Virus record (IMG/VR): IMGVR_UViG_3300025314_000087
Coordinates: 1 to 26,938 of that record
DNA from: a virus
Direction: 5' to 3' (one strand)
DNA: 26,938 nucleotides
Every line of letters begins with the position of its first letter. Position 1 is the first letter of the stretch. The notes beneath the pieces were generated by a model. That model saw only the letters and a list, made by a program, of their open reading frames with translations. It was not told the origin of the DNA and made no database searches. Positions 5,026 to 23,799 of the stretch are shown here, one piece after another. Made by a program: the position numbers and the translations under genes.

Positions 5026-6099
5026 ATGGACAATTTGATGGATATCTTCGGGGACGACGCCTTTAGCCTGATTTCCATGGTGGCAGCCGTCAACGATATC
5101 GACAACGTGCCGGGTCGCGCGGGTGAACTGTGCTTCCAGGGCGTCGGCGAGGGCGTGCCGGTGTCAACGATCACTATCGAACAGAAAGCCACGGCGCTTT
5201 CGGTCATTCCGGTTTCGCAACGTGGTGGCCCCGCTCCGCAAGAGACACAGGATAAGGGCAAGCTCTTCCCGCTGTTGATTCCGCATATCAAGGAAGAGGA
5301 AACCATTGGCGCAAGCCAAGTGCAGGGCGTCCGTCAATTCGGATCGTCCAACGTGCTGACGGGCGTCCAAACGGTCATCAGTCAGCAAATGGGCAAGATC
5401 GTGTCCAAGATGGACTTGACCTTGGAACATCATCGCTTGGGCGCGCTCAAGGGCGTGATCCGCGATGCCGATGGTTCGGCGCTGATGGACCTGTACGAAA
5501 AGTTCGGTGTGGACCGGCCGGCGGATTTCGATTTCAAGCTGACGGACTATTCGTCCGATGCGGCTTTCGAAGACGCGGTTCGCGTTAGTTGCATGAACGT
5601 GTCGCGCTATATGAAGCGTAACGCCAAGATGACCATTCCCGCGTCGGCGCGGATTTGGGGTTTCTGCGGCGACAATTTCATGGACAAGCTTATCGAGAAT
5701 CCGTCCGTGAAAGCGACGGCCAATGGGTGGCAACGCGCCGAACAGTTGCTTGGCGACAACTACGCCAACGGTGTCTTTTACTTCGCCGGCATCTATTTTG
5801 AGAACTACGCCGGCACCGACGATATCACTGGCGAAGAGGCGAGCGACGGCGATATGATCGGCAAGGTGGGCATCGCGTCCGACGAATGCCGGTTGTTCCT
5901 GACTGGCGTCCCGGGCTTGTATGCCGAATATTTCGCGCCCGGCGATTTCATGGATACGGTCAACACCATCGGCCTGCCGCGTTACGCCCGGCTTGCCGTT
6001 GACAACGAATTCAATCGTTGGGTCAAGTTGCATGTCCAGCAGAATCCGCTGCCCTTGTGTCTGCGCCCGCGTACCTTGGTTCGCGCGCTGGCCGGCTAA
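5026..6099 (+). CDS. Major capsid protein, lambda gpE type
   Basis: Building block of the icosahedral head. The 357-aa length is near lambda gpE (341 aa). The N-terminal half has the VPGRAGELCFQGVGEGVPV segment, a TITIEQKATALSVIPVSQRGG strand-loop, and FPLLIPHIKEEETIGASQVQGVRQFG, which fit the HK97-fold gpE family. Later ARIWGFCGDNFMDKLIENPSV and the C-terminal LPRYARLAVDNEFNRWVKLHVQQNPLPLCLRP, with its final Arg-rich strand, are also typical. AGGAG at 5015-5019 is 6 nt before the ATG. A hairpin terminator follows the gene. Codon use is strongly biased to C/G-ending codons compared with many neighbours, consistent with high expression. Confidence 0.94.
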   Translation: MDNLMDIFGDDAFSLISMVAAVNDIDNVPGRAGELCFQGVGEGVPVSTITIEQKATALSVIPVSQRGGPAPQETQDKGKLFPLLIPHIKEEETIGASQVQGVRQFGSSNVLTGVQTVISQQMGKIVSKMDLTLEHHRLGALKGVIRDADGSALMDLYEKFGVDRPADFDFKLTDYSSDAAFEDAVRVSCMNVSRYMKRNAKMTIPASARIWGFCGDNFMDKLIENPSVKATANGWQRAEQLLGDNYANGVFYFAGIYFENYAGTDDITGEEASDGDMIGKVGIASDECRLFLTGVPGLYAEYFAPGDFMDTVNTIGLPRYARLAVDNEFNRWVKLHVQQNPLPLCLRPRTLVRALAG

Positions 6100-6127
6100 G
6101 GCTCCGGCGAACTCGGGGACTAAATCC

Positions 6128-6160
6128 GGAAGGCCGCGCAATCGCAATGCGCGGCCTTTC
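6128..6160 (+). terminator. Terminator-like hairpin after the major capsid gene
   Basis: An 11-bp perfect inverted repeat, arms AAGGCCGCGCA (6130-6140) and TGCGCGGCCTT (6148-6158) with a 7-nt loop, extendable by a G-T and a G-C pair. Only a short T run follows, so it may be a weak or partial terminator, or an mRNA stabiliser for the capsid transcript. It separates the head genes from the accessory pair at 6178-7415. Confidence 0.65.
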
Positions 6161-6177
6161 GCATAGGACAGGCAATC

Positions 6178-6861
6178 ATGATTACGACCCTTTCACCACG
6201 TCCACTTCCATTGAAAGGCCGTTGGCGGATTGAACCGCTATGGTGTGGTGAAACTGTTTTCATTGTTGCGGGTGGTCCTAGTTTGCGTGGGGTGAATCTC
6301 GATTGTCTAAAAGGCCGCAAAGTGATTGCGGTCAATTCCAGTTACGAGAAAGTCCCGTTTGCTGATTTGTTATTTTTCGGCGATGCCCGATGGTGGACGG
6401 ATCACGCCGACAAACTTAAAAAGTTTTCTGGCCGGATTGTGACTTGTTCGGGTGCGGTTTCGAGCGATAAGCTTTTGAAGCTTCGTCGCGTTGTGCCGGG
6501 TAATGGGTCGCCCGGCTTTGCCGAAGATCGCGACGCGACGGCTTCGCAACGAACAAGTTTGCAAGGCGCTATGAATATTGCGTCCCATCTTGGCGCGCGA
6601 CGGGAAGTCCTACTTGGTGCAGACATGGGTCGGGCGTCCGATGGCGCATCGCATCATCATTCTAAACATCGGTGGCCCGTGCGGCAGGGTAATGTGACAT
6701 GGAATGAGCAAATGTCGCATTTGAAATTGATTGTTGAACCTTTGGCAAAACGGAAGGTGGAAGTTATCAACACAAGTTTGGTTAGTCGAATTCCATGGTG
6801 GCCAAAAATGTCTTTGACTGATTTTCTCGCAAAAGAAAAAATCGAACAAGAGGAGTCATGA
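6178..6861 (+). CDS. DUF115/MptE-like Rossmann-type protein of unknown role
   Basis: A 227-aa protein whose N-terminal half has the form of the DUF115/MptE-like group: a hydrophobic strand into a Gly-Pro-Ser motif (FIVAGGPSLRGV, residues 28-39), a second strand KVIAVNSSY (48-56), then FADLLFFGDARWW (61-73) with a conserved-looking Asp before aromatic residues. Further on, EVLLGADM and a HHHSKH cluster, and the C-terminal VINTSLVSRIPWWPKMSL, follow the same family pattern. Similar phage proteins are often annotated only by historical names; relatives include diphosphokinases and glycan-transfer-associated proteins, so a nucleotide- or sugar-phosphate-binding role is possible but unproven. AGGA at 6165-6168 precedes the ATG by 9 nt. 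It overlaps the SPFH gene's upstream ATG by 4 nt, so the two are likely co-translated. Confidence 0.6.
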   Translation: MITTLSPRPLPLKGRWRIEPLWCGETVFIVAGGPSLRGVNLDCLKGRKVIAVNSSYEKVPFADLLFFGDARWWTDHADKLKKFSGRIVTCSGAVSSDKLLKLRRVVPGNGSPGFAEDRDATASQRTSLQGAMNIASHLGARREVLLGADMGRASDGASHHHSKHRWPVRQGNVTWNEQMSHLKLIVEPLAKRKVEVINTSLVSRIPWWPKMSLTDFLAKEKIEQEES

Positions 6862-6863
6862 CC

Positions 6864-7415
6864 ATGGGCGAAACATTCGTTACAGTTGTTTTCAACAATC
6901 TTATGGCTTTGATGCCGTTTGTGATCGTGCGTTCGTATCAACGCGGCGTTCGCTGGCGCTTTGGGCGTCATGCAATTTCTTTGGAACCTGGAATCCATTT
7001 GAAAATTTGGGTCTATCACCAAATTGAAGTTTCGGACGTGACGGACGAATTCATTGAACTTCCGATTCAATCCGTTGTGACCAAAGACGAAAAACTTGTT
7101 TGCTTTTCCGCGAACGTCGGGTATCGAATCGAAGATATCGTGAAGCATTGGGAGAATGTGCAAGACTTTGTGGAATCGACGCACGGGGCGGCCATGACGC
7201 ATCTTGCGGCAAAAGTTCGGGAGAAGACTCTTTCCGAATTAGTGTCGGATTTGAAGTCATTGGAAAAATCCTTGGAAAACACCCTTACAACCCGATTCAA
7301 GGCGTGGGGAACGAAGGTAATCTGCGTTGGCTTTACCAATTTTGCGGAAGTACCGACGCAAATTCGGTTGTTCGTCGGGGAAACAAAGCTGATGCCGCAT
7401 AGTGCGACGCATTAG
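6864..7415 (+). CDS. SPFH/band-7 domain protein
   Basis: A 183-aa stomatin/prohibitin-like protein. An N-terminal hydrophobic stretch (VTVVFNNLMALMPFVIV) is followed by the band-7 pattern: VRWRFGRHAISLEPGIHLKI, then IELPIQSVVTKDEKLVCFSANVGYRIED, a helical region containing HLAAKVREKTLSELVSDLKSLEKSLE, and the closing WGTKVICVGFTNF. SPFH proteins form membrane-bound rings or scaffolds. The AGGAG at 6851-6855 fits the ATG at 6864 (8 nt) far better than the one at 6858 (2 nt). Phage SPFH genes in a head-tail operon are unusual; roles could be in host membrane stress or assembly. It lacks the long C-terminal coiled coil of flotillins. Fold is confident, function unknown. Confidence 0.82.
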   Translation: MGETFVTVVFNNLMALMPFVIVRSYQRGVRWRFGRHAISLEPGIHLKIWVYHQIEVSDVTDEFIELPIQSVVTKDEKLVCFSANVGYRIEDIVKHWENVQDFVESTHGAAMTHLAAKVREKTLSELVSDLKSLEKSLENTLTTRFKAWGTKVICVGFTNFAEVPTQIRLFVGETKLMPHSATH

Positions 7416-7425
7416 AGAGTCTTAA

Positions 7426-7453
7426 TTGCCCGGACCGCAGATCGGTCTAAGAT
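7426..7453 (+). promoter_or_regulatory. Possible sigma70-type promoter before the spike genes
   Basis: TTGCCC (7426-7431) and TAAGAT (7448-7453) are separated by 16 nt, each matching four of six consensus positions. A small dyad GACCG/CGGTC (7433-7437 and 7443-7447) lies in the spacer. It is in one of the few intergenic gaps here (62 nt). A chance match is quite possible. Confidence 0.3.
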
Positions 7454-7477
7454 GGGAATAACTGATGGAGTCGGGTC

Positions 7478-7750
7478 ATGGCTAAAGCAAAAGTGCAGGA
7501 TTTGCAGTGGGAGTTGATGCGCTCAATGGCCCCCGCGACCCGGGTTCGGGCCGTATCCGGCGAGGGTGATATCATCGCCCCGAATGGCGCAACGCTGTAC
7601 GTCGGAACGAAAGGGAGCGTTGAATTCCGACCTTACAAAGGCTCCGAATTCGTGACCGTTCCGAACTTGGAAGGGTTCGTGCCGATTCGCGCATACGCGG
7701 TACGGCTTGGCAGCGATACGTCGGCGACCGATATCTTTTTCGTATGGTGA
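7478..7750 (+). CDS. Small spike-base-like protein (resembles GTA Rcc01079 family)
   Basis: A 90-aa beta-rich protein. The second half follows the pattern of small phage and gene transfer agent spike-base proteins: ATLYVGTKGSVEFRPYKGSE, VTVPNLEGFVPIRAYAVRLG, and a final ATDIFFVW where the family usually ends in a T-A-T-[DN]-I motif. In the Rhodobacter capsulatus gene transfer agent the base protein anchors a capsid spike. Here the next gene, 4 nt downstream, encodes a carbohydrate-binding-type SPRY domain, which supports a base-plus-spike pair. GGAG at 7467-7470 serves the ATG. Assignment is by eye and by context. Confidence 0.55.
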   Translation: MAKAKVQDLQWELMRSMAPATRVRAVSGEGDIIAPNGATLYVGTKGSVEFRPYKGSEFVTVPNLEGFVPIRAYAVRLGSDTSATDIFFVW

Positions 7751-7754
7751 TCTA

Positions 7755-8510
7755 ATGCGAGGGCGCGGACGTTCGCGGCGACGGACCGATTTAGCGGCGA
7801 TTCGGTTTGCAGCCGAGCCGGCGTCCGACTTCCCGTCGTCCATGCCGTCTTCGGAGCCGGCGTCCGACTTCCCGTCGTCCATGCCGTCTTCGGAGCCGGC
7901 GTCCGACTTCCCGTCGTCCATGCCGTCTTCGGAGCCGGCTCCGTTGGTTCCGGCGATCTGGAATTCCGCCGACAAGTCGGCGTCGATTACATTGACCAAT
8001 GGCGATCTAACGGCGGATTCCGGAGCCTATGGGTTCACCGGAGTCCGGGCGAACCTTAGCAAGACGGCGGGAAAATTCTATTGTGAGTTTTCCGCCAACG
8101 CCATGGACGATAATGACTCCGGCATCGGTGTGGTACTGGCGAGCGCGAGCCTAGGCGGACTGCGCAAAGGCGGCGCGGGTCCAATCGTTTATACAACGGT
8201 CATCTATAGCAACTTCGGTGGCCCCGGATCGGTGTTGACGAACATCGTGGGCAACACTCTTTGCATGGCCGTGGACTTGGACGCGCGGAAGGCATGGTTC
8301 CGCACGAATAACGGAAATTGGAACGGTAGTCCGTCCGACGATCCGGCGACCGGCGCGGGTGGAATCGATTATTCGAGTTACATATCTGCCGGCGCAGCGA
8401 TGATGCCGGGCATGGCGGCGAGTACCCCGAATATTGGGACAACGGCGAACTTCGGGGCGAGCGCCTACAGCTATACCCCGCCATCCGGATACGGGAATTG
8501 GGAAGAGTGA
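7755..8510 (+). CDS. SPRY-domain spike or fibre protein with tandem-repeat linker
   Basis: A 251-aa protein in three parts: a very basic N-terminus (MRGRGRSRRRTDL), a Pro/Ser/Glu linker of three exact 13-residue repeats (EPASDFPSSMPSS), and a 181-residue SPRY-like beta-sandwich from residue 69 to the end. The SPRY part shows KFYCEFSANAMDDNDSGIGV, LCMAVDLDARKAWFRTNNGNW and TANFGASAYSYTPPSGYGNW, typical of phage fibre SPRY domains that bind surface glycans or proteins. A nearly identical domain starts the adhesin at 19986. The ATG at 7755 was chosen over a TTG at 7707 that overlaps the previous gene; there is no clear ribosome binding site, so translation is probably coupled. Position suggests a head- or neck-attached decoration, but a tail location is not excluded. 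Confidence 0.7.
   Translation: MRGRGRSRRRTDLAAIRFAAEPASDFPSSMPSSEPASDFPSSMPSSEPASDFPSSMPSSEPAPLVPAIWNSADKSASITLTNGDLTADSGAYGFTGVRANLSKTAGKFYCEFSANAMDDNDSGIGVVLASASLGGLRKGGAGPIVYTTVIYSNFGGPGSVLTNIVGNTLCMAVDLDARKAWFRTNNGNWNGSPSDDPATGAGGIDYSSYISAGAAMMPGMAASTPNIGTTANFGASAYSYTPPSGYGNWEE
7815..7931 (+). repeat. Three perfect 39-bp tandem repeats in the spike linker
   Basis: Units at 7815-7853, 7854-7892 and 7893-7931 are identical and in frame, each encoding EPASDFPSSMPSS. A fourth partial copy begins at 7932. Exact identity even at silent positions indicates recent expansion or ongoing slippage. Confidence 0.97.
7959..8501 (+). repeat. SPRY-domain duplication, copy 1
   Basis: This 543-bp stretch aligns without gaps to 20001-20543. 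The encoded 181-residue domains differ at 13 positions by my count (about 93% identity), with a central run of about 90 residues unchanged. Confidence 0.95.
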
Positions 8511-8511
8511 C

Positions 8512-8868
8512 ATGGGAATTGATTTTCAATCTCTATTATACGAACCAATTTACACTTTGCAGGGTGTGACCGTATTACTCACACTTGGTAATGGTGCCGA
8601 ATATGATTCGCTTACGGCGTTGGACAAAACGACTGGAGTCGAAGTTGGCGACCATGCGGAAGTTCCGACCATTCAACCGGCCGCCGCGTTTCGAATCAAA
8701 GAGCTAATCGACCGGGGGTTAATCTTGGAAGATTTGCTTGGGGCAACGTTGGAAATGAACGAATGGCTTTGGACGGTTCGGAATTACAAGCTTAAGCCGA
8801 GTCCCAATGGCCAGGACGACGGGGAAGTTTTCTTGATCTTGGATGAACGGCGAAAGGTGACGCCATGA
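8512..8868 (+). CDS. Probable head-tail connector (stopper-like) protein
   Basis: A 118-aa protein I do not recognise with certainty. Size and outline resemble lambda gpFII-type stoppers: N-terminal helix (FQSLLYEPIYTL), a beta strand region (GVTVLLTLGNGAEYDSLTALD), a charged loop, RIKELIDRGLILEDLLGATLEM with the 'define the limits of a value' look of FII/tail-joining folds, and the C-terminal NEWLWTVRNYKL...EVFLILDERRKV. The ATG lies 1 nt after the spike stop. Its own stop overlaps the next start as ATGA. A head-tail joining protein is otherwise missing between portal and tail genes, which supports the call. It could instead be another structural accessory protein. Confidence 0.5.
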   Translation: MGIDFQSLLYEPIYTLQGVTVLLTLGNGAEYDSLTALDKTTGVEVGDHAEVPTIQPAAAFRIKELIDRGLILEDLLGATLEMNEWLWTVRNYKLKPSPNGQDDGEVFLILDERRKVTP

Positions 8869-9215
8869 CTCCCGGTGTTTATGATTTCGATCTTGTTCGC
8901 GGAACGACTTCGCCTTTCGTCTTTCAATTGAAGACGACGGATGACGCAGGCGTTGAAACGAACATGCCTTATGAAGATGTTCGGTTGACCCTGTACGCTA
9001 ACGGGGAATTTTTGTTTCGGAAATCGCTCGCCGACGATACGCTTGAATCTGATTCGGATAACGCCGAAATCATGTGGACGCCGACTGTTGAGGAGTCGCG
9101 TTTAATTCCGCAAGGCCGCAATACCCGTTACGAAGTTGAAGTTCGGTATGCCGGCGGGCAAGAGGTTTATCTTGTCGGCGTGATTACCGGACTCGGAGGG
9201 CTGAATGATGACTGA
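8865..9215 (+). CDS. Small beta-domain virion protein upstream of collagen-like fibre
   Basis: A 116-aa protein of the common phage small-domain type: YDFDLVRGTTSPFVFQLK, DVRLTLYANGEFLFRK, an acidic middle, AEIMWTPTVEESRLIPQG, then RYEVEVRYAGGQEVYLVGVIT. This strand order looks like the immunoglobulin-like or BppU-N-like domains that often sit just upstream of fibre genes and may anchor or fold them. Function is inferred only from that likeness and from the next gene, a collagen-like fibre whose start overlaps it by 8 nt. GGAGGG near its end (9195-9200) serves the fibre gene. Confidence 0.5.
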   Translation: MTPGVYDFDLVRGTTSPFVFQLKTTDDAGVETNMPYEDVRLTLYANGEFLFRKSLADDTLESDSDNAEIMWTPTVEESRLIPQGRNTRYEVEVRYAGGQEVYLVGVITGLGGLNDD

Positions 9216-11109
9216 CGTTGTAGTAAAGGTCATCAAACGAATTGTGAATCCCATTCCGCCAAAACCGACCGGCGTAGTGAAGGTAATTGCACGCGGTCCG
9301 CGTGGGCCAAAAGGTGAAGACGGGGCAACGTTAGTCGGCGAGGGCGCGCATATTTACCAAGGGTCCGGCGTGCCCGATTCCGCTCTTGGGGCGGATAATG
9401 AATGGTACATTGATAGCGATACCGCTGATATGTATCAAAAACAAGACGGGACATGGGAATATATTTTGACGATCTTAGGCCCGCAAGGTCCAGCGGGTCC
9501 GGCAGGCGAAGACGGGCAATTGCTTGTCGGTGAGGGCGCAAATATTCTTACCGGCGATGGGGTGCCAAGTGATTCTATTGGCACGGATGCCGATCTTTAT
9601 CTTGATAATGTCGGGGATGACATTTACAAAAAAGTTTCGGGCCATTGGGAATTCCAAACGAATATCAGAGGATCGGCAGGCCCCGAAGGAATTCAAGGGC
9701 TGCAAGGTAATCCCGGATCGAATGGGACGAATGGATGGACGCCGGTTTTTGCCGTTGTCGTGGACGGCTCGCGTAATGTGTTGCAAGTTGTCGATTGGAC
9801 AGGCGGCAGCGGTACGAAACCGGCGACCGGAAAATATGTCGGGGCAACAGGTCTTGTTATTCTGATTGCCGATGCGGTCAATATTCGCGGTGCGCAAGGC
9901 GCGGCGGGCGCAGCGGGTGCGGACGGCGCGGATGGGGCGGACGGCCCGGCCGGAGCGGACGGGGCCGATGGTGTCGGCAATGCTTGGCGTTCCGGATCGG
10001 GAGCGCCTTCGGATTCGCTTGGCATCAATGGCGATCTATATTTGGACACCGTGACGGACGACGTTTATCAGAAAGCCGCCGGCACCTACGGCATCGTTGC
10101 GAATATTAAAGGTGCGGCCGGCGCGGATGGTGCGGACGGCGCGGACGGTGCCGATGGCATCGGCAATGCGTGGCGTTCCGGATCGGGAGCGCCTTCGGAT
10201 TCGCTTGGCATTAACGGCGATCTATATTTGGACACGGCGACGGACGACGTTTATCAGAAAGCCGCCGGCATCTATAGCGTCATTACGAATATTCACGGGA
10301 CTGCCGGCGCGGATGGTGCGGACGGCGCAGACGGTGCCGATGGCATCGGCAATGCTTGGCGTTCCGGATCGGGAGCGCCTTCGGATTCGGTCGGTATCGA
10401 CGGCGATCTATATTTGGACACCGTGACGGACGACGTTTATCAGAAAGCCGCCGGCACCTACAGCGTCATTACGAACATCAAAGGCAATACAGGCGCAGAC
10501 GGTGCAGACGGCGCGGACGGGGCCGATGGCGTCGGCAATGCTTGGCGGTCCGGGTCGGGAGCGCCTTCCGATTCGCTTGGGATCAACGGCGATCTATATT
10601 TGGACACCGTGACGGACGACGTTTATCAGAAAGCCGCCGGCACCTACAGCATCGTTGCGAACATCAAAGGTTCGAATGGTGCAGCGGGTGCAGACGGCGC
10701 GGACGGCGCGGATGGTGCCCCCGGTTCGGCCGGGACGACTCAAATCGTTGTCGAAATTGATGGGAACGGAAACGTAATCACCACAGGTTTGAAAGGATTT
10801 TTGCCTCTTAAGTTTGCGGGTACGATCACATCGGCAACGCTTGTGGCAGATCGCGCGGGGGCCATCGTTGTCGATATATGGAAATGCACTTATGCGCAAT
10901 TCGACGCGGGCGCGACCCATCCCGTCACGGGTGATAAGATCACGTCCAGCACACCGCCGACAATTACGGCGTCAAATACCAAAGCTCAAGATACAACGCT
11001 TGCTAGTTGGACCACGACTTTCGCGGATGGTGATCTGTATGGGTTCAATGTGAATAGCTGTACTACGATTCAAAAGGCGTGGCTTATTCTTGCGATTACC
11101 CGGAGTTGA
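9208..11109 (+). CDS. Collagen-like fibre protein with 62-residue modules
   Basis: A 633-aa fibre. The N-terminal 30 residues (VVKVIKRIVNPIPPKPTG) look like an attachment segment. Then GPRGPKGEDGA begins a series of Gly-X-Y blocks (GADGADGADGADG, GPAGPAGEDG) alternating with a globular insert of the form WRSGSGAPSDS-G-GDLYLDT-TDDVYQKAAGTY-NIKG. Two diverged and four near-identical modules are visible. The last ~125 residues form a non-collagenous beta domain (GFLPLKFAGTITSATLVAD, IVVDIWKCTYAQF, TIQKAWLILAITRS) likely to be the trimerisation or receptor-binding tip. Collagen-like triple helices are known in phage fibres. Start codon: GGAGGG at 9195-9200 fits ATG 9208 (7 nt) better than ATG 9205. 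The location suggests a head, neck or tail-side fibre; which one cannot be told. Confidence 0.85.
   Translation: MTDVVVKVIKRIVNPIPPKPTGVVKVIARGPRGPKGEDGATLVGEGAHIYQGSGVPDSALGADNEWYIDSDTADMYQKQDGTWEYILTILGPQGPAGPAGEDGQLLVGEGANILTGDGVPSDSIGTDADLYLDNVGDDIYKKVSGHWEFQTNIRGSAGPEGIQGLQGNPGSNGTNGWTPVFAVVVDGSRNVLQVVDWTGGSGTKPATGKYVGATGLVILIADAVNIRGAQGAAGAAGADGADGADGPAGADGADGVGNAWRSGSGAPSDSLGINGDLYLDTVTDDVYQKAAGTYGIVANIKGAAGADGADGADGADGIGNAWRSGSGAPSDSLGINGDLYLDTATDDVYQKAAGIYSVITNIHGTAGADGADGADGADGIGNAWRSGSGAPSDSVGIDGDLYLDTVTDDVYQKAAGTYSVITNIKGNTGADGADGADGADGVGNAWRSGSGAPSDSLGINGDLYLDTVTDDVYQKAAGTYSIVANIKGSNGAAGADGADGADGAPGSAGTTQIVVEIDGNGNVITTGLKGFLPLKFAGTITSATLVADRAGAIVVDIWKCTYAQFDAGATHPVTGDKITSSTPPTITASNTKAQDTTLASWTTTFADGDLYGFNVNSCTTIQKAWLILAITRS
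9976..10719 (+). repeat. Four 186-bp tandem repeats in the collagen-like gene
   Basis: GGCAATGC landmarks occur at 9976, 10162, 10348 and 10534, an exact 186-bp period (62 codons). Copies are very similar in the insert; the collagen part varies mostly at silent sites, and the last copy's collagen segment (GSNGAAGADGAD) differs. Two more degenerate copies precede (about 9340-9700). Confidence 0.95.
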
Positions 11110-19176: not shown

Positions 19177-19989
19177 ATGCCGTTGCCATCATCCGGGAAT
19201 ATGTTTCCGATCACTTTGCTTTTCCGCAGTGTGAGTTCGCTTTGGACAAGCTTAGGCCGCAAACTTTTTGCGTCGGAAGTGGACGAAAACTTTTATCAGC
19301 TACAAGAAGCGGTTAATTTCTTGGCCGAAAACCCAACGCTGCCGAAGGAAATTGATTCCATTAGCGTGGTCGGCAGTCAAATGACCATTACTCTTTCGGA
19401 CGGGATAACGACCTTTGGTCCGTTCACCTTGCCCATGGGAGCATTTCGCTGGACAGGCGATTTCCAAGCGGCATTCGACTACAAAACATTTGATCTGTTG
19501 ATGGCGACAAGCGGGATTTATATGGTGTTGCAAGACTTCACATCAGGCAGCACGTTTCAAGCGGGTGCAGCGAATAGCGAAGGGCCGTACTTGCGGTTGC
19601 TGATGCCGACGCCGACGTTATACGATATCGGATTCTTTTTTCCCGGAACGCCGGGAGCCGGAATTGCCGATGGCGAAGCGATGTTCACCTATCGTTTTAC
19701 GCGCGACGTGTATTTCCCGCTGGATTTGATCGACTCGGTGGTCGGACTGGCGACGCCCACGACTGACGATTTGGTTTGTCCGATCTATAAGAATGGTTCG
19801 GAAATCGGATCGTTGACCGTGCCGGCCGGTGGTTATGTCGGCACGTTTGATTTCCCCACCGTTGTCCAATTTACAGACGGGGATCGGATTCGAGTTTTGA
19901 AGCCGGATGCACTGGACGCCACGGCTAGGGATTTAAGTGTAACCTTCGCTGCGTTGAAGGGTGTCTTTGCGGAGGTTGTATCATCGTGA
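19177..19989 (+). CDS. Minor tail / tail-fibre protein
   Basis: A 270-aa protein. The N-terminus carries FASEVDENFYQLQEAV, the EVD-x-NF motif common near the start of phage fibre proteins and thought to be part of the tail-binding helix. Next comes a beta region ending GAFRWTGDFQAAFDYKTFDLL, then GIYMVLQDFTSGSTF like the small carbohydrate-binding modules of fibres, and the last 100 residues (YKNGSEIGSLTVPAGGYVG, VVQFTDGDRIRVLKPDALDAT) have the outline of fibre-tip beta domains. AGGAG at 19164-19168 lies 8 nt before the ATG. The stop overlaps the GTG of the adhesin as GTGA, so the two are coupled and may form one fibre. Confidence 0.65.
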   Translation: MPLPSSGNMFPITLLFRSVSSLWTSLGRKLFASEVDENFYQLQEAVNFLAENPTLPKEIDSISVVGSQMTITLSDGITTFGPFTLPMGAFRWTGDFQAAFDYKTFDLLMATSGIYMVLQDFTSGSTFQAGAANSEGPYLRLLMPTPTLYDIGFFFPGTPGAGIADGEAMFTYRFTRDVYFPLDLIDSVVGLATPTTDDLVCPIYKNGSEIGSLTVPAGGYVGTFDFPTVVQFTDGDRIRVLKPDALDATARDLSVTFAALKGVFAEVVSS

Positions 19990-22424
19990 CGACGGCAGTT
20001 TGGAATTCAGCCGACAAGTCGGCAACGATTACGTTGAGCAACGGTGATCTTACGGCGCAAGCAACCGCCTATGGGTTCACCGGAGTTCGGGCGACGTTGG
20101 CGAAGACGGCGGGAAAATTCTATTGCGAGTTTTCTGCCAACGCTATGGACGACAACGACTCCGGCATCGGTGTGGTACTGGCGAGCGCGAGCCTAGGCGG
20201 ACTTCGCAAAGGTGGCGCGGGGCCAATCGTTTATACAACCGTCATCTATAACAACTTCGGTGGCCCCGGATCGGTACTGACGAACATCGTGGGCAACACG
20301 CTTTGCATGGCCGTGGATTTGGACGCGCGGAAGGCGTGGTTCCGCACGAACAACGGCAATTGGAACGGTAGTCCGTCCGACGATCCGGCGACCGGCGCGG
20401 GTGGAATCGATTATTCGAGCTACATATCGGCTGGCGCGTCAATGATGCCGGGCATGGCGGCCAGTACCCCTACAATGGCGACCACGGGGAATTTTGGGGC
20501 GAGCGCGTACAGCTATACCCCGCCATCGGGATACGGGAATTGGGCGGACGATCCACCGTCGTCTATGCCATCTTCGGAGCCGCCGTCGTCCATGCCGTCG
20601 TCTATGCCATCTTCGGAGCCGCCGTCGTCCACGCCCGATTGCACTTGGAATCCGGTGGACACGTCGGCGGAAATTGATCTGTCGTCCGACCTATTGTCGG
20701 CGCAGGTTAATCCTAGTGAGTTAGGTTATTTTTATTCAAGGGCGACGCGCTCGCACGCGCGAGGAAAATATTATTTTGAATTGAACATTGATGAAATAAA
20801 CCAAGGCAATCAAATTGAACTTTTTGGTGTCGGGCGTGCGAGTATTGACCCGGCAAATTTCACGGCGATCTATAATGGTAATGCCGATTCGTCCGGTTTT
20901 ATTGAAATCGGTTTGCATGGGGGCGGTGGGCATTTTACTATGTCCAATATCACAATCGGCGTTGCTGTTGATTTGAATACCCGCAAAGTTCGTTTCAAAG
21001 TTCGCGCGAATGGGTACACATTTGATTGGATTGGCGGTTCGGGAACGCTTCCAGCGGGCGAGATTTTTCCGACGCTGCTTTTAAGGGGATGGGGATTTAC
21101 CCCGCCGATTCCTCCAATCGTTACCGCGAATTTCGGCGCGAGCGGCTTTGTCTTCGAAATTCCCGGCGACTTCCAATCATGGGACGGTTTGCAAGGTGCA
21201 TCGTCCAGCGCGGCGAATCTTCTTTCCGGTGGGATTGTCATTGCAGCCGGCGCAGTCGGAAGCCATGCGGATCAGTGTGCGATTTCAGCCGACGCGGCAG
21301 CATTCGATTTTGGGGGCACGCTTCCCACATTCGATAACGGGGCGGCAATCGGCTGGAAAGTTTGCCCTGCGCCAGAATTAGGAATCTTCGTTGCATATGC
21401 AAAGGATGCTCCGGACGTAAATCGGCAAATCAGAATTTCCCGGGACTACGGGCAGACATGGGAATCGGTGACTTCCCCCGCGAATAATGCGTGGGAGTCA
21501 ATAACGTGGTGTCGGGGCCTTGGGCTTTTCATAGCGGTGGCATCCACCGGAACGAATCGCGTTATGACTTCGCCGGATGGCGAGAATTGGACGTTGCAAA
21601 CGGCCGCGTCGGCATCGGTATGGAAAGCGGTTGCGTGGTCGGAAGAGCTTGGTTTGGCGGTCGCGGTCGGCACGAACGCAATTATGAAATCCAGCAATGG
21701 CACCACATGGACTACGGTGACGAGTCCAGCGGATAGACAATGGTACGCTATCGCATGGGGTGTCATTCAAGATTCGATTGGGGAAGGGTCGGGATTGTTC
21801 GTTGCCATTGCGAACAATGCAAGCGGATCGAATGACTATATGACTTCCGCAACCGGAAGCACATTTGTTGCCGGTGATTCTGGCAATGCCGGTAGTTTCG
21901 AGGATATTTGTTTTTCTGACGAATTGGAAATCTTTTTGGCCGTGCAAAGTACAGGCAGTGGTTACGCGCTGCGGTTTGATGGGACAACGTGGGCGACAAG
22001 CTCGCCGAGTCCATCGCAAGCATGGGTCGGGTGCGGATGGTCACAAATCGGTCAATGCTTTGTTATCGTGACGACCGATGCAATTGCAACGTCGCCGAAC
22101 GGCGATGCCCCATGGACGGCGTTGACTTCGCCCGGGTCGCGCGGGTGGCGCAGCGTGGCGGAATTGGTGACGTTGCCGGAATCCCCATCGTCACTTTTTG
22201 AATCCTTTTTGGCATCGTCTGCGCCATCTTCGGAGCCGCCGTCGTCCGTGCCATCTTCGCTGCCGTCGTCTGCGCCATCTTCGCTGCCGTCGTCTGCGCC
22301 ATCTTCGCTGCCGTCGTCTGCACCATCTTCGGAGCCGCCGTCGTCCGTGCCATCTTCGGCCCCATCTAGCGCACCCCCTGATTTACCACCGCCGATTCAG
22401 ACGGTAGTTGTTACGCTTTGCTAA
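19986..22424 (+). CDS. Multidomain adhesin: two SPRY-like domains, propeller-like repeats, Pro/Ser linkers
   Basis: An 812-aa probable receptor-binding protein. Residues 6-186 are a SPRY-like domain nearly identical to the one at 7959. A Pro/Ser/Glu linker follows (about 190-215). A second, diverged SPRY-like domain covers about 218-400 (GKYYFELNIDEINQ, IGVAVDLNTRKVRFKVRANG, TANFGASGFVFEIP). About 430-735 are six repeats with Asp-box-like cores: SRDYGQTWES, SPDGENWTLQT, SSNGTTWTTV, ATGSTFVAG, FDGTTWATS, SPNGDAPWTAL, which suggests a beta-propeller. The rest is a long Pro/Ser linker (SAPSSLPSSAPSS) and a short hydrophobic end VVVTLC. Start is GTG at 19986, with GGAGG 10 nt upstream inside the previous gene. 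Enzyme activity (for example sialidase) cannot be claimed; Asp boxes also occur in non-enzymes. Confidence 0.75.
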   Translation: MTTAVWNSADKSATITLSNGDLTAQATAYGFTGVRATLAKTAGKFYCEFSANAMDDNDSGIGVVLASASLGGLRKGGAGPIVYTTVIYNNFGGPGSVLTNIVGNTLCMAVDLDARKAWFRTNNGNWNGSPSDDPATGAGGIDYSSYISAGASMMPGMAASTPTMATTGNFGASAYSYTPPSGYGNWADDPPSSMPSSEPPSSMPSSMPSSEPPSSTPDCTWNPVDTSAEIDLSSDLLSAQVNPSELGYFYSRATRSHARGKYYFELNIDEINQGNQIELFGVGRASIDPANFTAIYNGNADSSGFIEIGLHGGGGHFTMSNITIGVAVDLNTRKVRFKVRANGYTFDWIGGSGTLPAGEIFPTLLLRGWGFTPPIPPIVTANFGASGFVFEIPGDFQSWDGLQGASSSAANLLSGGIVIAAGAVGSHADQCAISADAAAFDFGGTLPTFDNGAAIGWKVCPAPELGIFVAYAKDAPDVNRQIRISRDYGQTWESVTSPANNAWESITWCRGLGLFIAVASTGTNRVMTSPDGENWTLQTAASASVWKAVAWSEELGLAVAVGTNAIMKSSNGTTWTTVTSPADRQWYAIAWGVIQDSIGEGSGLFVAIANNASGSNDYMTSATGSTFVAGDSGNAGSFEDICFSDELEIFLAVQSTGSGYALRFDGTTWATSSPSPSQAWVGCGWSQIGQCFVIVTTDAIATSPNGDAPWTALTSPGSRGWRSVAELVTLPESPSSLFESFLASSAPSSEPPSSVPSSLPSSAPSSLPSSAPSSLPSSAPSSEPPSSVPSSAPSSAPPDLPPPIQTVVVTLC
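20001..20543 (+). repeat. SPRY-domain duplication, copy 2
   Basis: Ungapped match to 7959-8501, offset 12,042 bp. The flanks differ: here the domain is N-terminal and followed by a Pro/Ser linker, there it is C-terminal and preceded by one. Confidence 0.95.
22205..22375 (+). repeat. Low-complexity Pro/Ser repeat tract in the adhesin
   Basis: Imperfect tandem 12-bp and 24-bp units such as CCATCTTCGCTGCCGTCG encode runs of APSSLPSS/EPPSSVPSS. A shorter tract of the same type is at about 20551-20640, and the linker at 7815-7931 has related sequence. These tracts can vary in length by slippage. Confidence 0.9.
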
Positions 22425-22437: not shown

Positions 22438-22452
22438 TGGGGCTTGTATAAT
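22425..22452 (+). promoter_or_regulatory. Candidate promoter for the lysis genes
   Basis: TTGGGC (22425-22430) and a consensus TATAAT (22447-22452) are 16 nt apart, in the 64-nt gap before the endolysin. The -35 lies in the loop and right arm of the hairpin at 22413-22437. The -10 is perfect; the -35 is weak. Confidence 0.55.
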
Positions 22453-22488
22453 AAGCTTAAATGCGGTTTCCAATCGAAAGTCCGGACT

Positions 22489-23799
22489 ATGTTCCTTCGG
22501 CTCAGTAAGGCTCAATTAAAAGAAATTATGCCCCGAATTCCGGATCGGTACGCCACGGCGTTTATCGATACGCAGGGCGAGCTTGACGGGTGGGGAATTA
22601 CCGCGAACGTCAACCGTTATGGCATGTGGATTGCCAATGTCGCGCATGAATGCGGCGAATTCCACGAAATGGTTGAAAATGGAAATTACCGAACTGAAAC
22701 CATTTTGCGGACGTGGCCAAGCCGATTCAAGTCGGTAGCGCAGGCGGCCCCTTACGCGCATAACGGGCCAAAACTTTTTAACATGACTTATGCGAATCGG
22801 ATGGGCAACGGGCCGCCGTCCAGTGGGGATGGATTTAAATTCCGGGGGCGTGGCGAACCGCAGGTGACCGGCAAGGACGGTTATAAGAACGTTGGGCATG
22901 TTGCCAATCTTCCGCTTACCGACGATCCGGATTTGGCAATGGCCCTTGCCCATATGAATCGGGTCGGTGCGGCGTTTTGGGAATGGAAGAGTCTAAACCG
23001 TTTTGCCGATGCCGGTGATTTTTATACCGTGGTCGGACGATGGAATGGCGGCCATATCGGCATGGTGCAGCGCAAAGTTTATTTGAACCGTGCGCTTGCT
23101 GTGCTGAAAAAGGCGCAGCGGATTGCCGAAGTCACGCCCCCGCGTATAGCGGAGGTTCCTTCGGAGCCGCTGGCCGAGTCTATCGTGCCGCCGACGATTC
23201 CGCCTATCGATCCGCGTGGCGAGCCTTCGGAAGTTGTTCCGCGCGCCCCGACGCCTGCGTTTGATGCGGAAGCCGCGCAACGCAAGCTTCGCGCGCTTGG
23301 TTATTGGCCGGGCAACGTGGATGGCGACGAAGGATCATTTATGCGCGACGCGCTGCTTTCCTTCCAAGCCGACAATCATTTACCGATTACGGGCACCCTG
23401 GACGATGCGACGTGGGCCGAACTGACGGTGGCCGGGCCAAAGTTCGTTCCGGAATCACGCGCCAATGCTACGGTCACGACGTTGCGGGAAAAAGGCAGCG
23501 AAACGATTTCTTTGACGGACCGCGTGAAGCGATACGCCGCATGGCTTGTCGGTGGCGGCACCGTTGGGACGGCGGCCGGTGGCGATCAAGCCGGGAATGG
23601 TGGATGGCTGGATTCGATTCAGGGGTATTACTATCAATTCAGCATGTTCGTTGAACCTGCAAAGGCCGTGATTGCATTCATTCGTGAACATCAATTCTTG
23701 CTATTCGTCGGCTTGGGCCTTTTGATTTGGTTCGTTGCCCATAAGATTCAGCAACGCCGCGTGGAAGATGAACGCACCGGAGCAAATAGGGGCCGTTGA
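22489..23799 (+). CDS. Endolysin: GH19 muramidase/chitinase-like, PG-binding domain, C-terminal membrane helix
   Basis: Degrades peptidoglycan at lysis. Residues 1-205 are a glycoside hydrolase family 19-type domain: NVAHECGEF with likely catalytic Glu54, MVENGNYR with Glu63, YANRMGNGPPSSGDGFKFRGRG and GRWNGGHIG. The usual GRGLIQLTG is GRGEPQVTG here. After a Pro-rich linker, residues 258-313 are a peptidoglycan-binding module (AQRKLRALGYWPGNVDGDEG, DATWAELT). Residues 402-419 (QFLLFVGLGLLIWFVAHK) are a transmembrane helix followed by a basic tail, so the protein is anchored or carries a holin-like part. No signal peptide is seen. Start ATG 22489 is supported by the family opening LSKAQLKEIMP; a TTG at 22444 overlaps the promoter. 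The stop overlaps the i-spanin start (TGATG). Confidence 0.88.
   Translation: MFLRLSKAQLKEIMPRIPDRYATAFIDTQGELDGWGITANVNRYGMWIANVAHECGEFHEMVENGNYRTETILRTWPSRFKSVAQAAPYAHNGPKLFNMTYANRMGNGPPSSGDGFKFRGRGEPQVTGKDGYKNVGHVANLPLTDDPDLAMALAHMNRVGAAFWEWKSLNRFADAGDFYTVVGRWNGGHIGMVQRKVYLNRALAVLKKAQRIAEVTPPRIAEVPSEPLAESIVPPTIPPIDPRGEPSEVVPRAPTPAFDAEAAQRKLRALGYWPGNVDGDEGSFMRDALLSFQADNHLPITGTLDDATWAELTVAGPKFVPESRANATVTTLREKGSETISLTDRVKRYAAWLVGGGTVGTAAGGDQAGNGGWLDSIQGYYYQFSMFVEPAKAVIAFIREHQFLLFVGLGLLIWFVAHKIQQRRVEDERTGANRGR

Follow-up and report, generated by a model that had tools for sequence, protein, structure and literature searches.

The gene directly downstream of the major capsid gene in the phage described here, which we call ORFA, is one of the recurrent putative sugar enzymes of phage late operons, and the gene overlapping it, ORFB, codes for a short SPFH protein that was probably acquired independently and recently, separately from ORFA. 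We favour glycosylation of a virion protein as the putative role of ORFA, and consider the chance about even (a probability of roughly 0.5) that ORFA modifies a virion protein in this way and that the separately acquired ORFB acts on an SPFH assembly of the host.

The capsid-proximal slot

We analysed a linear IMG/VR contig of 26,938 bases (IMGVR_UViG_3300025314_000087), in the following called the window. A sibling contig, IMGVR_UViG_3300025174_000043, has 15,920 bases in common with it, differing by 2 mismatches, and in an 11-kb contig the genes of the window recur at 100% protein identity; the window and these two near-identical contigs (L002 and L003) are one phage. Its late genes are arranged in the order terminase, portal, ClpP-type protease, decoration protein, capsid protein of the Phage_cap_E type, ORFA, ORFB, two small genes and other late genes (Table 1). 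An earlier note, made from the sequence of the window alone, had described two overlapping genes set into a head-to-tail gene order, and this description was borne out, the genes sharing 4 nt and lying between the capsid gene and the following late genes. Since the overlap is an ATGA stop/start motif 3′ of a GAGGAG sequence, translational coupling of the two genes is likely. The second of the two small genes contains a tandem repeat (39 bp, 3.3 copies, 7815-7943), and one of its segments is about 90% similar to a segment within 19986-22424; speculatively, its product could be an acceptor for O-glycosylation.

Table 1. Features of the window in and around the capsid-proximal slot
Feature	Position	Strand	Basis or remark
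Major capsid protein (Phage_cap_E)	5026-6099	+	Pfam PF03864, E 1.3e-73; upstream anchor of the slot
Strong hairpin in the gap between capsid gene and ORFA	6127-6161	+	14-bp stem, 7-nt loop
ORFA, stand-alone Maf_flag10/MptE-like (formerly DUF115) putative glycosyltransferase, 227 aa	6178-6861	+	phrog_4603; structural model; PF01973 in relatives
ORFA-ORFB junction: GAGGAG, ribosome-binding-like (6850-6855), and ATGA stop/start overlap (6858-6861)	6850-6861	+	sequence
ORFB, minimal SPFH/Band_7 protein, 185 aa	6858-7415	+	PF01145, E 5.4e-17
Gene of 90 aa, function unassigned	7478-7750	+	weak phrog_12296 match alone, E 0.019
Putative displayed protein, 251 aa, with three Ser/Pro-rich 13-residue repeats	7755-8510	+	phrog_10080, E 1.2e-18
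c7, the conserved late gene that follows and bounds the slot	8518-8841	+	profile c7

The slot was viewed from the capsid side with loci collected by a capsid-protein search, which were not chosen by the presence of ORFA and of which the best 80 of 158 relatives were kept. Together with the window these gave 81 loci, of which 65 were non-redundant; 10 loci without room were dropped, leaving 55 testable. Within this set (best 80 of 158) ORFA follows the capsid gene in 5 of the 55 loci, namely in the window, L116, L117, L118 and L167 (L116 being the same contig as L028 and L117 the same as L033), and in 4 of the 6 phages whose capsid protein is at least 50% identical. The slot holds ORFA and ORFB in the window, ORFA followed by a glycosyltransferase, a methyltransferase and a further glycosyltransferase in L116, ORFA and two open reading frames judged by eye to be a methyltransferase and a glycosyltransferase in L117, and ORFA between a methyltransferase and a glycosyltransferase in L118. 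The slot of L119 contains a gene resembling a polysaccharide pyruvyl-transferase (24.9 bits, just under the cut-off of 25.3), and that of L120 is empty, with no sugar-type gene. If ORFA is counted, a sugar-type gene is present in the slot of 5 of these 6 phages. As ORFA occurs in 5 of 55 capsid relatives and the slot contents differ, we regard the slot as variable and ORFA as an accessory gene, which is restricted to certain lineages and yet tied to the late structural genes.

Family and predicted fold of ORFA

ORFA matched phrog_4603, labelled alpha-2,3-sialyltransferase, with an E-value of 1.1e-31 over model positions 1-175 of 178. The earlier description of the gene as DUF115-like stands on its family more than on its own sequence: taken singly, ORFA matches PF01973 (the former DUF115) weakly and under the cut-off (E 0.012, 15.8 bits against 34.6 bits), but 21 of 51 aligned family members match it at E 0.1, the best with E 8.1e-10, and the structural model has the corresponding fold. 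Residues N53, D69, R71, D149, H160 and H161 are conserved in the family.

Searches of the PDB with the ORFA sequence, singly or as a profile, gave nothing convincing. An AF2 model was built on 51 sequences (pLDDT 91.3, pTM 0.90), and in a VIA-align comparison its top match is the flagellin glycosyltransferase Maf (5mu5; Z 16.0, rmsd 3.7 over 190 residues, 15% identity), followed by the GT42 sialyltransferases CstII (Z 12.6) and Cst-I (Z 12.4). The pyrophosphokinases come next (MptE HPPK with Z 11.4, thiamin pyrophosphokinases with 10.2), and other folds reach at most 4.9. With Foldseek CstII was the sole PDB match below 1e-3 (TM about 0.48), and the viral models nearest to that of ORFA include several named MptE-like. 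ORFA aligns as one domain to residues 259-516 of the 632-residue Maf chain and does not have the three-domain architecture of full-length Maf. The central Maf_flag10 domain has been equated with pfam01973 and described as CstII-like (2024; a passage in PMC11339370), which together with the fold match indicates that ORFA is the Maf_flag10 domain alone. The suggestion of the earlier note that the unit may modify the host envelope or the virion fits this predicted Maf/sialyltransferase fold.

Neighbourhoods of ORFA in other phages

Relatives of ORFA were found by two conserved peptide patterns, with the best 80 of 160 being kept, and the neighbourhood counts are biased by this choice of loci. The 82 loci analysed (the window, L010 and L028-L108 without L032, three of them from genomes) comprise 50 that are non-redundant at 95%. 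Among these 50 (best 80 of 160) the gene directly upstream of ORFA is a gp6-type connector in 27, a Phage_cap_E capsid gene in 11 and neither in 12, that is, a capsid or head-tail-connector gene lies immediately 5′ of ORFA in 38 loci. Downstream of ORFA, and again within the best 80 of 160, we found the glycosyltransferase-like gene GTx (phrog_6804) in 36 of the 47 loci that had room for it; of 44 loci of this set, 29 have a methyltransferase (two families were modelled), 35 have at least one modelled sugar-type gene and 23 have a conserved late gene, c7 or c4, within 2.5 kb of ORFA. In four loci (L040, L053, L054 and L073) the ORFA and GTx regions are fused in one open reading frame of 927-987 aa, and the one fused frame that was scanned, that of L040, has a methyltransferase domain at its end. 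A scan of genome contigs yielded three ORFA loci (Bradyrhizobium, an alphaproteobacterial MAG and Mesorhizobium), and in L029 an ORFA-type gene follows, as judged by eye, a fibre-like gene. GTx is absent from the window and no methyltransferase adjoins ORFA there; the sibling contig carries an FkbM-type methyltransferase far upstream.

An exploratory scan of 13 ORFA loci for Ser/Pro-rich acceptors showed clear stretches only in the window and in L029, the signals elsewhere being likely antisense noise. A Ser/Pro-rich acceptor signature common to ORFA loci was rejected on these counts (2 of 13 loci).

Among known phages ORFA matched 49 of 50,697 phage records in a tblastn search, including giant phages of Caulobacter and Brevundimonas, T. 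viridis virus S20, P1 and P7. The gene is preceded by tail-protein genes in CcrColossus and Domovoi. ORF010, ORF011 and ORF012 of PAJU2, situated between head and tail genes, match phrog_4603, phrog_6804 and phrog_6564 and are, judged by sequence, of the same three families as ORFA, GTx and the methyltransferase. In D3, which like PAJU2 is a culturable phage, orf7 matches phrog_4603, orf12 is related to GTx in a tblastn search and orf13 carries a methyltransferase annotation; the three are not all adjacent. In P1 both pmgO and pmgP are of the ORFA type and pmgQ belongs to the glycosyltransferase family phrog_1962, which is also the family of the partner glycosyltransferase in L028. With hhalign the relation of ORFA to P1 PmgO, PAJU2 ORF010 and D3 orf7 obtained probabilities of 98.7-99.3%. 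GenBank labels PAJU2 ORF010 and the homologue in Eowyn as structural protein, and the P1 homologue is named "putative morphogenetic function". According to the relevant part of PMC10695390 pmgO, pmgP and pmgQ of P1 are non-essential, in the case of pmgO by CRISPRi and by cited deletion data.

This P1 name and the structural scores for MptE and the thiamin pyrophosphokinases would suit an ORFA that acts not on sugars but as a pyrophosphokinase of the MptE kind, or that has a morphogenetic role without catalysis. We regard this as improbable, given that Maf and the GT42 enzymes score higher, that most ORFA relatives adjoin a glycosyltransferase or methyltransferase, that the slots read showed no recognisable genes for pterin or thiamin and that P1 can dispense with pmgO.

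The partner GTx has no match in Pfam or NCBIfam. Its model (pLDDT 89.6) is structurally closest to TibC (4rap, Z 19.6) and a GT9 enzyme (Z 19.5), followed by WaaF (Z 17.8) and WaaC (Z 16.7). With hhalign it was related to one annotated GT9 protein with a probability of 89% and to another with 23%, and relatives of GTx are labelled glycosyltransferase family 9 in several phage records. The resemblance to both TibC and GT9 supports a sugar transferase, for which a protein or lipopolysaccharide would fit equally as acceptor; as ORFA in addition shares the fold of MptE/HPPK, a lipopolysaccharide or small-molecule substrate is conceivable. TibC, a heptosyltransferase acting on an autotransporter protein, possesses a beta-barrel at the N-terminus, a hairpin thumb and an iron finger with four cysteines (as described in a section of PMC4358343), whereas in GTx about three cysteines close to the C-terminus are conserved and the match starts at the barrel end. 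Membership of GTx in the TibC family proper was considered and rejected, the barrel being absent and the four-cysteine finger not found.

It has to be considered that ORFA and its partners might alter the host surface, i.e., lipopolysaccharide or capsule, in lysogenic conversion or superinfection exclusion, and not the virion. GTx is as near to GT9 as to TibC, with the lipopolysaccharide heptosyltransferases WaaF and WaaC coming next, and the second-best structural matches of ORFA are CstI/II, which act on lipo-oligosaccharide; the pyruvyl-transferase-like match in the slot of L119, just under its cut-off, points in the same direction. The genes are, however, located inside the late head-tail operon, to the extent that in L010 ORFA overlaps the capsid stop, and no promoter of their own was detected in the window. 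No flippase or membrane-bound glycosyltransferase was noticed in the slots read, and the gene stands behind tail-protein genes in CcrColossus and Domovoi and behind the fibre-like gene (by eye) in L029. On balance we think modification of the host surface rather unlikely and prefer a virion protein as the target of ORFA.

The SPFH gene ORFB

The second gene had been taken for an SPFH gene in the earlier note, and the match to PF01145 (Band_7/SPFH) with 62.8 bits, above the cut-off of 23.6, confirms this. By sequence the nearest structures are stomatin, QmcA and HflK; the equivalog models are matched far under their cut-offs (hflK with 42 bits against 159.4, hflC with 34.3 against 134.4). A hydrophobic N-terminal segment spans residues 6-24 (mean hydropathy 1.95 over 19 residues) and the protein stops about 15 residues past the matched SPFH region. 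In HflK and HflC a coiled coil follows the SPFH domain, according to PMC12005517, so with its early end ORFB is missing this coiled coil. The closest relative of ORFB, with 58% identity and near-equal length, is present on four contigs (L004-L007, of which one frame was read) belonging to one unrelated phage group. It ends at the same place, which argues that the short form is genuine and not an accident of sequencing. Its neighbours, by eye, are genes for a DNA methyltransferase and a DNA polymerase, and a search of these four contigs for ORFA, run without positive control, found none.

ORFB was found neither in 78 further records of the ORFA set (searched with a positive control) nor in 47 of the 80 records of the capsid set (without control), and a tblastn search at 1e-3, covering 50,697 phage records, produced a single weak match, in an unannotated record of 1,426 bases. 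The Bradyrhizobium, MAG and Mesorhizobium genomes gave just matches of 21-25% in frames of 333-394 aa. Plasmid records were matched in 353 cases; among the 15 listed, 10 are annotated as slipin or stomatin-like. The sole phrogs match is a weak one to phrog_200, "lipoprotein" (E 0.035). ORFB is thus a rare passenger.

These distributions bear on the claim of the earlier note that the two genes are a transferred unit of the moron type. A single transferred moron made up of ORFA and ORFB and acting jointly on the host envelope would agree with the overlap of the two genes, with their being AT-richer than the capsid gene and with their being missing from most relatives. Yet the pair is confined to three contigs of one phage (the window, L002 and L003), 78 of 78 other records of the ORFA set have no detected ORFB, no ORFA was found in the records of the ORFB relatives and a promoter unit was not found, so that we judge such a joint moron very improbable. 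What holds of the moron reading is the accessory nature of the genes, ORFA being present in 5 of 55 loci and ORFB, within the records searched from the two sets of relatives, in this phage only; a promoter or transcription unit of their own was not detected. The transfer as a pair does not hold, for ORFA recurs at this position in many phages and the 58% relatives of ORFB come without a found ORFA. The opposite possibility, a pair universal in relatives as part of the late structural core, is likewise not what we see. A conserved ORFA-ORFB cassette was also considered as a candidate and rejected.

Hairpin, promoter scan and base composition

The flanking signals proposed in the earlier note, a terminator behind the capsid gene and a promoter at 7426-7453, fared differently. 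The hairpin is there: the sequence 6100-6180 folds with -34.1 kcal/mol (z -3.25) and none of 200 shuffled sequences was equally stable. However, the hairpin at 6128-6160 has no long U-tract and the terminator scan makes no call, and it is probably an attenuator or an mRNA-stabilising element and not a canonical U-tract terminator. Hairpins between the capsid gene and the slot were also seen in L033 (z -3.25) and L118 (z -4.99), less distinctly in L028 (z -1.47, 13 of 200 shuffles equally stable); L010, in which the capsid stop codon and the ORFA start have one base in common, shows no outstanding hairpin in this place. A scan for sigma-70-like promoters found nothing at 7426-7453 and nothing before ORFA, and the whole region contains 1 such site compared with 2.2 in shuffled sequences, i.e., none above chance. 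The proposed arrangement, with the terminator first and the promoter last, would also be the reverse of a self-contained moron unit.

ORFA and ORFB are, as had been stated, AT-richer than the capsid gene, with a GC content of 0.496 and 0.471 against 0.577 and a GC3 of 0.45 and 0.54 against 0.74; six other genes of the window have a GC3 of 0.46-0.53. Their codon usage does not stand out (z -1.6 for ORFA and +1.6 for ORFB, while others among the 26 genes reach -4.1 and -2.5). A foreign codon-usage signature of the two genes was rejected since their scores lie within the range of the 26 genes.

Proposed roles and comparison with known systems

We propose that the region 6100-8517 forms an accessory slot, which relatives usually fill with putative glycan-modifying enzymes, and that its resident in this phage, ORFA, is a soluble stand-alone glycosyltransferase domain of the Maf type. 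Late transcripts may run past the capsid gene, and the hairpin could damp the readthrough, so that ORFA would be made in modest amounts. In the cytoplasm ORFA would, like Maf acting on flagellin, transfer an activated sugar to a freshly synthesised virion protein; candidate acceptors are the capsid, decoration or fibre protein and perhaps the Ser/Pro-rich product of 7755-8510. ORFB, presumably translated in a coupled manner, would be a membrane-anchored SPFH subunit without the coiled coil of HflKC or stomatin. Its domain architecture hints that it may join or cap an SPFH assembly of the host, such as HflKC-FtsH or a stomatin, and in this way alter membrane or protease function during infection. 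HflKC influences the proteolysis of lambda CII by FtsH, as stated in PMC12005517 in the part cited here.

A broader reading, which we put forward tentatively and hold to be doubtful, is that a widespread and so far unrecognised late-operon module for virion glycosylation exists in many phages of Proteobacteria, consisting of a stand-alone Maf-type transferase that is mostly accompanied by a TibC/GT9-like transferase and a methyltransferase, all of them sometimes in a single polypeptide. Such a module would include P1 pmgO-pmgQ, D3 orf7/12/13 and PAJU2 ORF010-012 and might decorate capsid or fibre proteins in the cytoplasm prior to assembly; in the window the partners would have been replaced by a coil-less SPFH subunit that tampers with host SPFH/FtsH assemblies. 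If this is true, late genes of P1, D3 and PAJU2 now called putative morphogenetic or hypothetical would be a virion-glycosylation system, and virion glycosylation would extend outside the mycobacteriophages, where it has been reported. Such a system would matter for the immunogenicity of phages, for receptor use and for the stability of the particles, and for the question of how protein substrates are selected by Maf-type enzymes. In the open-licence literature we found no paper on a module of ORFA, GTx and methyltransferase, and we do not claim that it is unpublished.

SPFH genes as such are already known from phages, i.e., from the T4-like phages 44RR, Aeh1 and RB43, as orf75 of CSP3, which has been termed a moron of the HflC family, and as a lipoprotein gene of GIB1 (passages in PMC1524935, PMC10269572 and PMC13239085). 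ORFB has the SPFH domain in common with these but is only 185 aa long and is located among head genes; with it, the small number of SPFH proteins from phages would come to include one that has no coiled coil. In P1, PAJU2 and D3 the ORFA-type genes have glycosyltransferase or methyltransferase partners, whereas the window phage has the SPFH gene instead.

Maf carries N-terminal and C-terminal domains besides the catalytic one (in the section cited of PMC11339370), whereas ORFA corresponds to the catalytic domain only. The transfer of a sugar by Maf to a structural protein in the cytoplasm, as described in PMC4065374, is the analogy we propose for ORFA. A phage glycosyltransferase that serves the virion, as we suggest for ORFA, is represented by gp110 of mycobacteriophage Che8 and gp38 of Corndog (PMC12363180, in the part cited).

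Genes in and around the slot

In a phage whose capsid protein shares at least 50% identity with that of the window, the slot position held by ORFA (the stand-alone Maf_flag10/MptE-like putative glycosyltransferase gene behind the capsid gene) carries a polysaccharide pyruvyl-transferase-like gene. A gene annotated as anti-CRISPR lies immediately upstream of the GT9 gene in Pseudomonas phage P7869, so the slot is open to other accessory genes too.

Two window products, of 251 and 812 aa, both contain Ser/Pro-rich repeats, and the former shares with the start of the latter a segment of about 90% identity, which is a recent duplication. The 634-aa protein contains collagen-type repeats (PF01391, E 2.3e-9), and the putative endolysin has a peptidoglycan-binding domain (E 8e-13) along with a weak GH19 match. 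The methyltransferase of the window phage's sibling contig is of the FkbM type (E 3.4e-19).

Location of the features discussed
Feature	Location	Strand	Context
251-aa product	window 7755-8510
634-aa collagen-repeat gene	window 9205-11109		between slot and tail-completion gene c4
812-aa product	window 19986-22424
Putative endolysin	window 22444-23799
FkbM-type methyltransferase	L018 11833-12510	minus	upstream part of sibling contig
Pyruvyl-transferase-like gene	L119 6120-6902
Anti-CRISPR-annotated gene	L196 3635-3997
Glycan island	L106 5896-11088		downstream of capsid gene
pmgO, pmgP, pmgQ	L015 4986-7544		phage P1

Sugar-enzyme gene sets in other phages

Besides ORFA, the long glycan island of a Bradyrhizobium prophage encodes a fusion of GT-D and methyltransferase, another ORFA-like protein, and two glycosyltransferases, one of family 2 and one matching the GT50 (phrog_1962-like) profile. 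In phage P1 both pmgO and pmgP are Maf/sialyltransferase-like, and they are separated by a protein phosphatase gene from the glycosyltransferase pmgQ.
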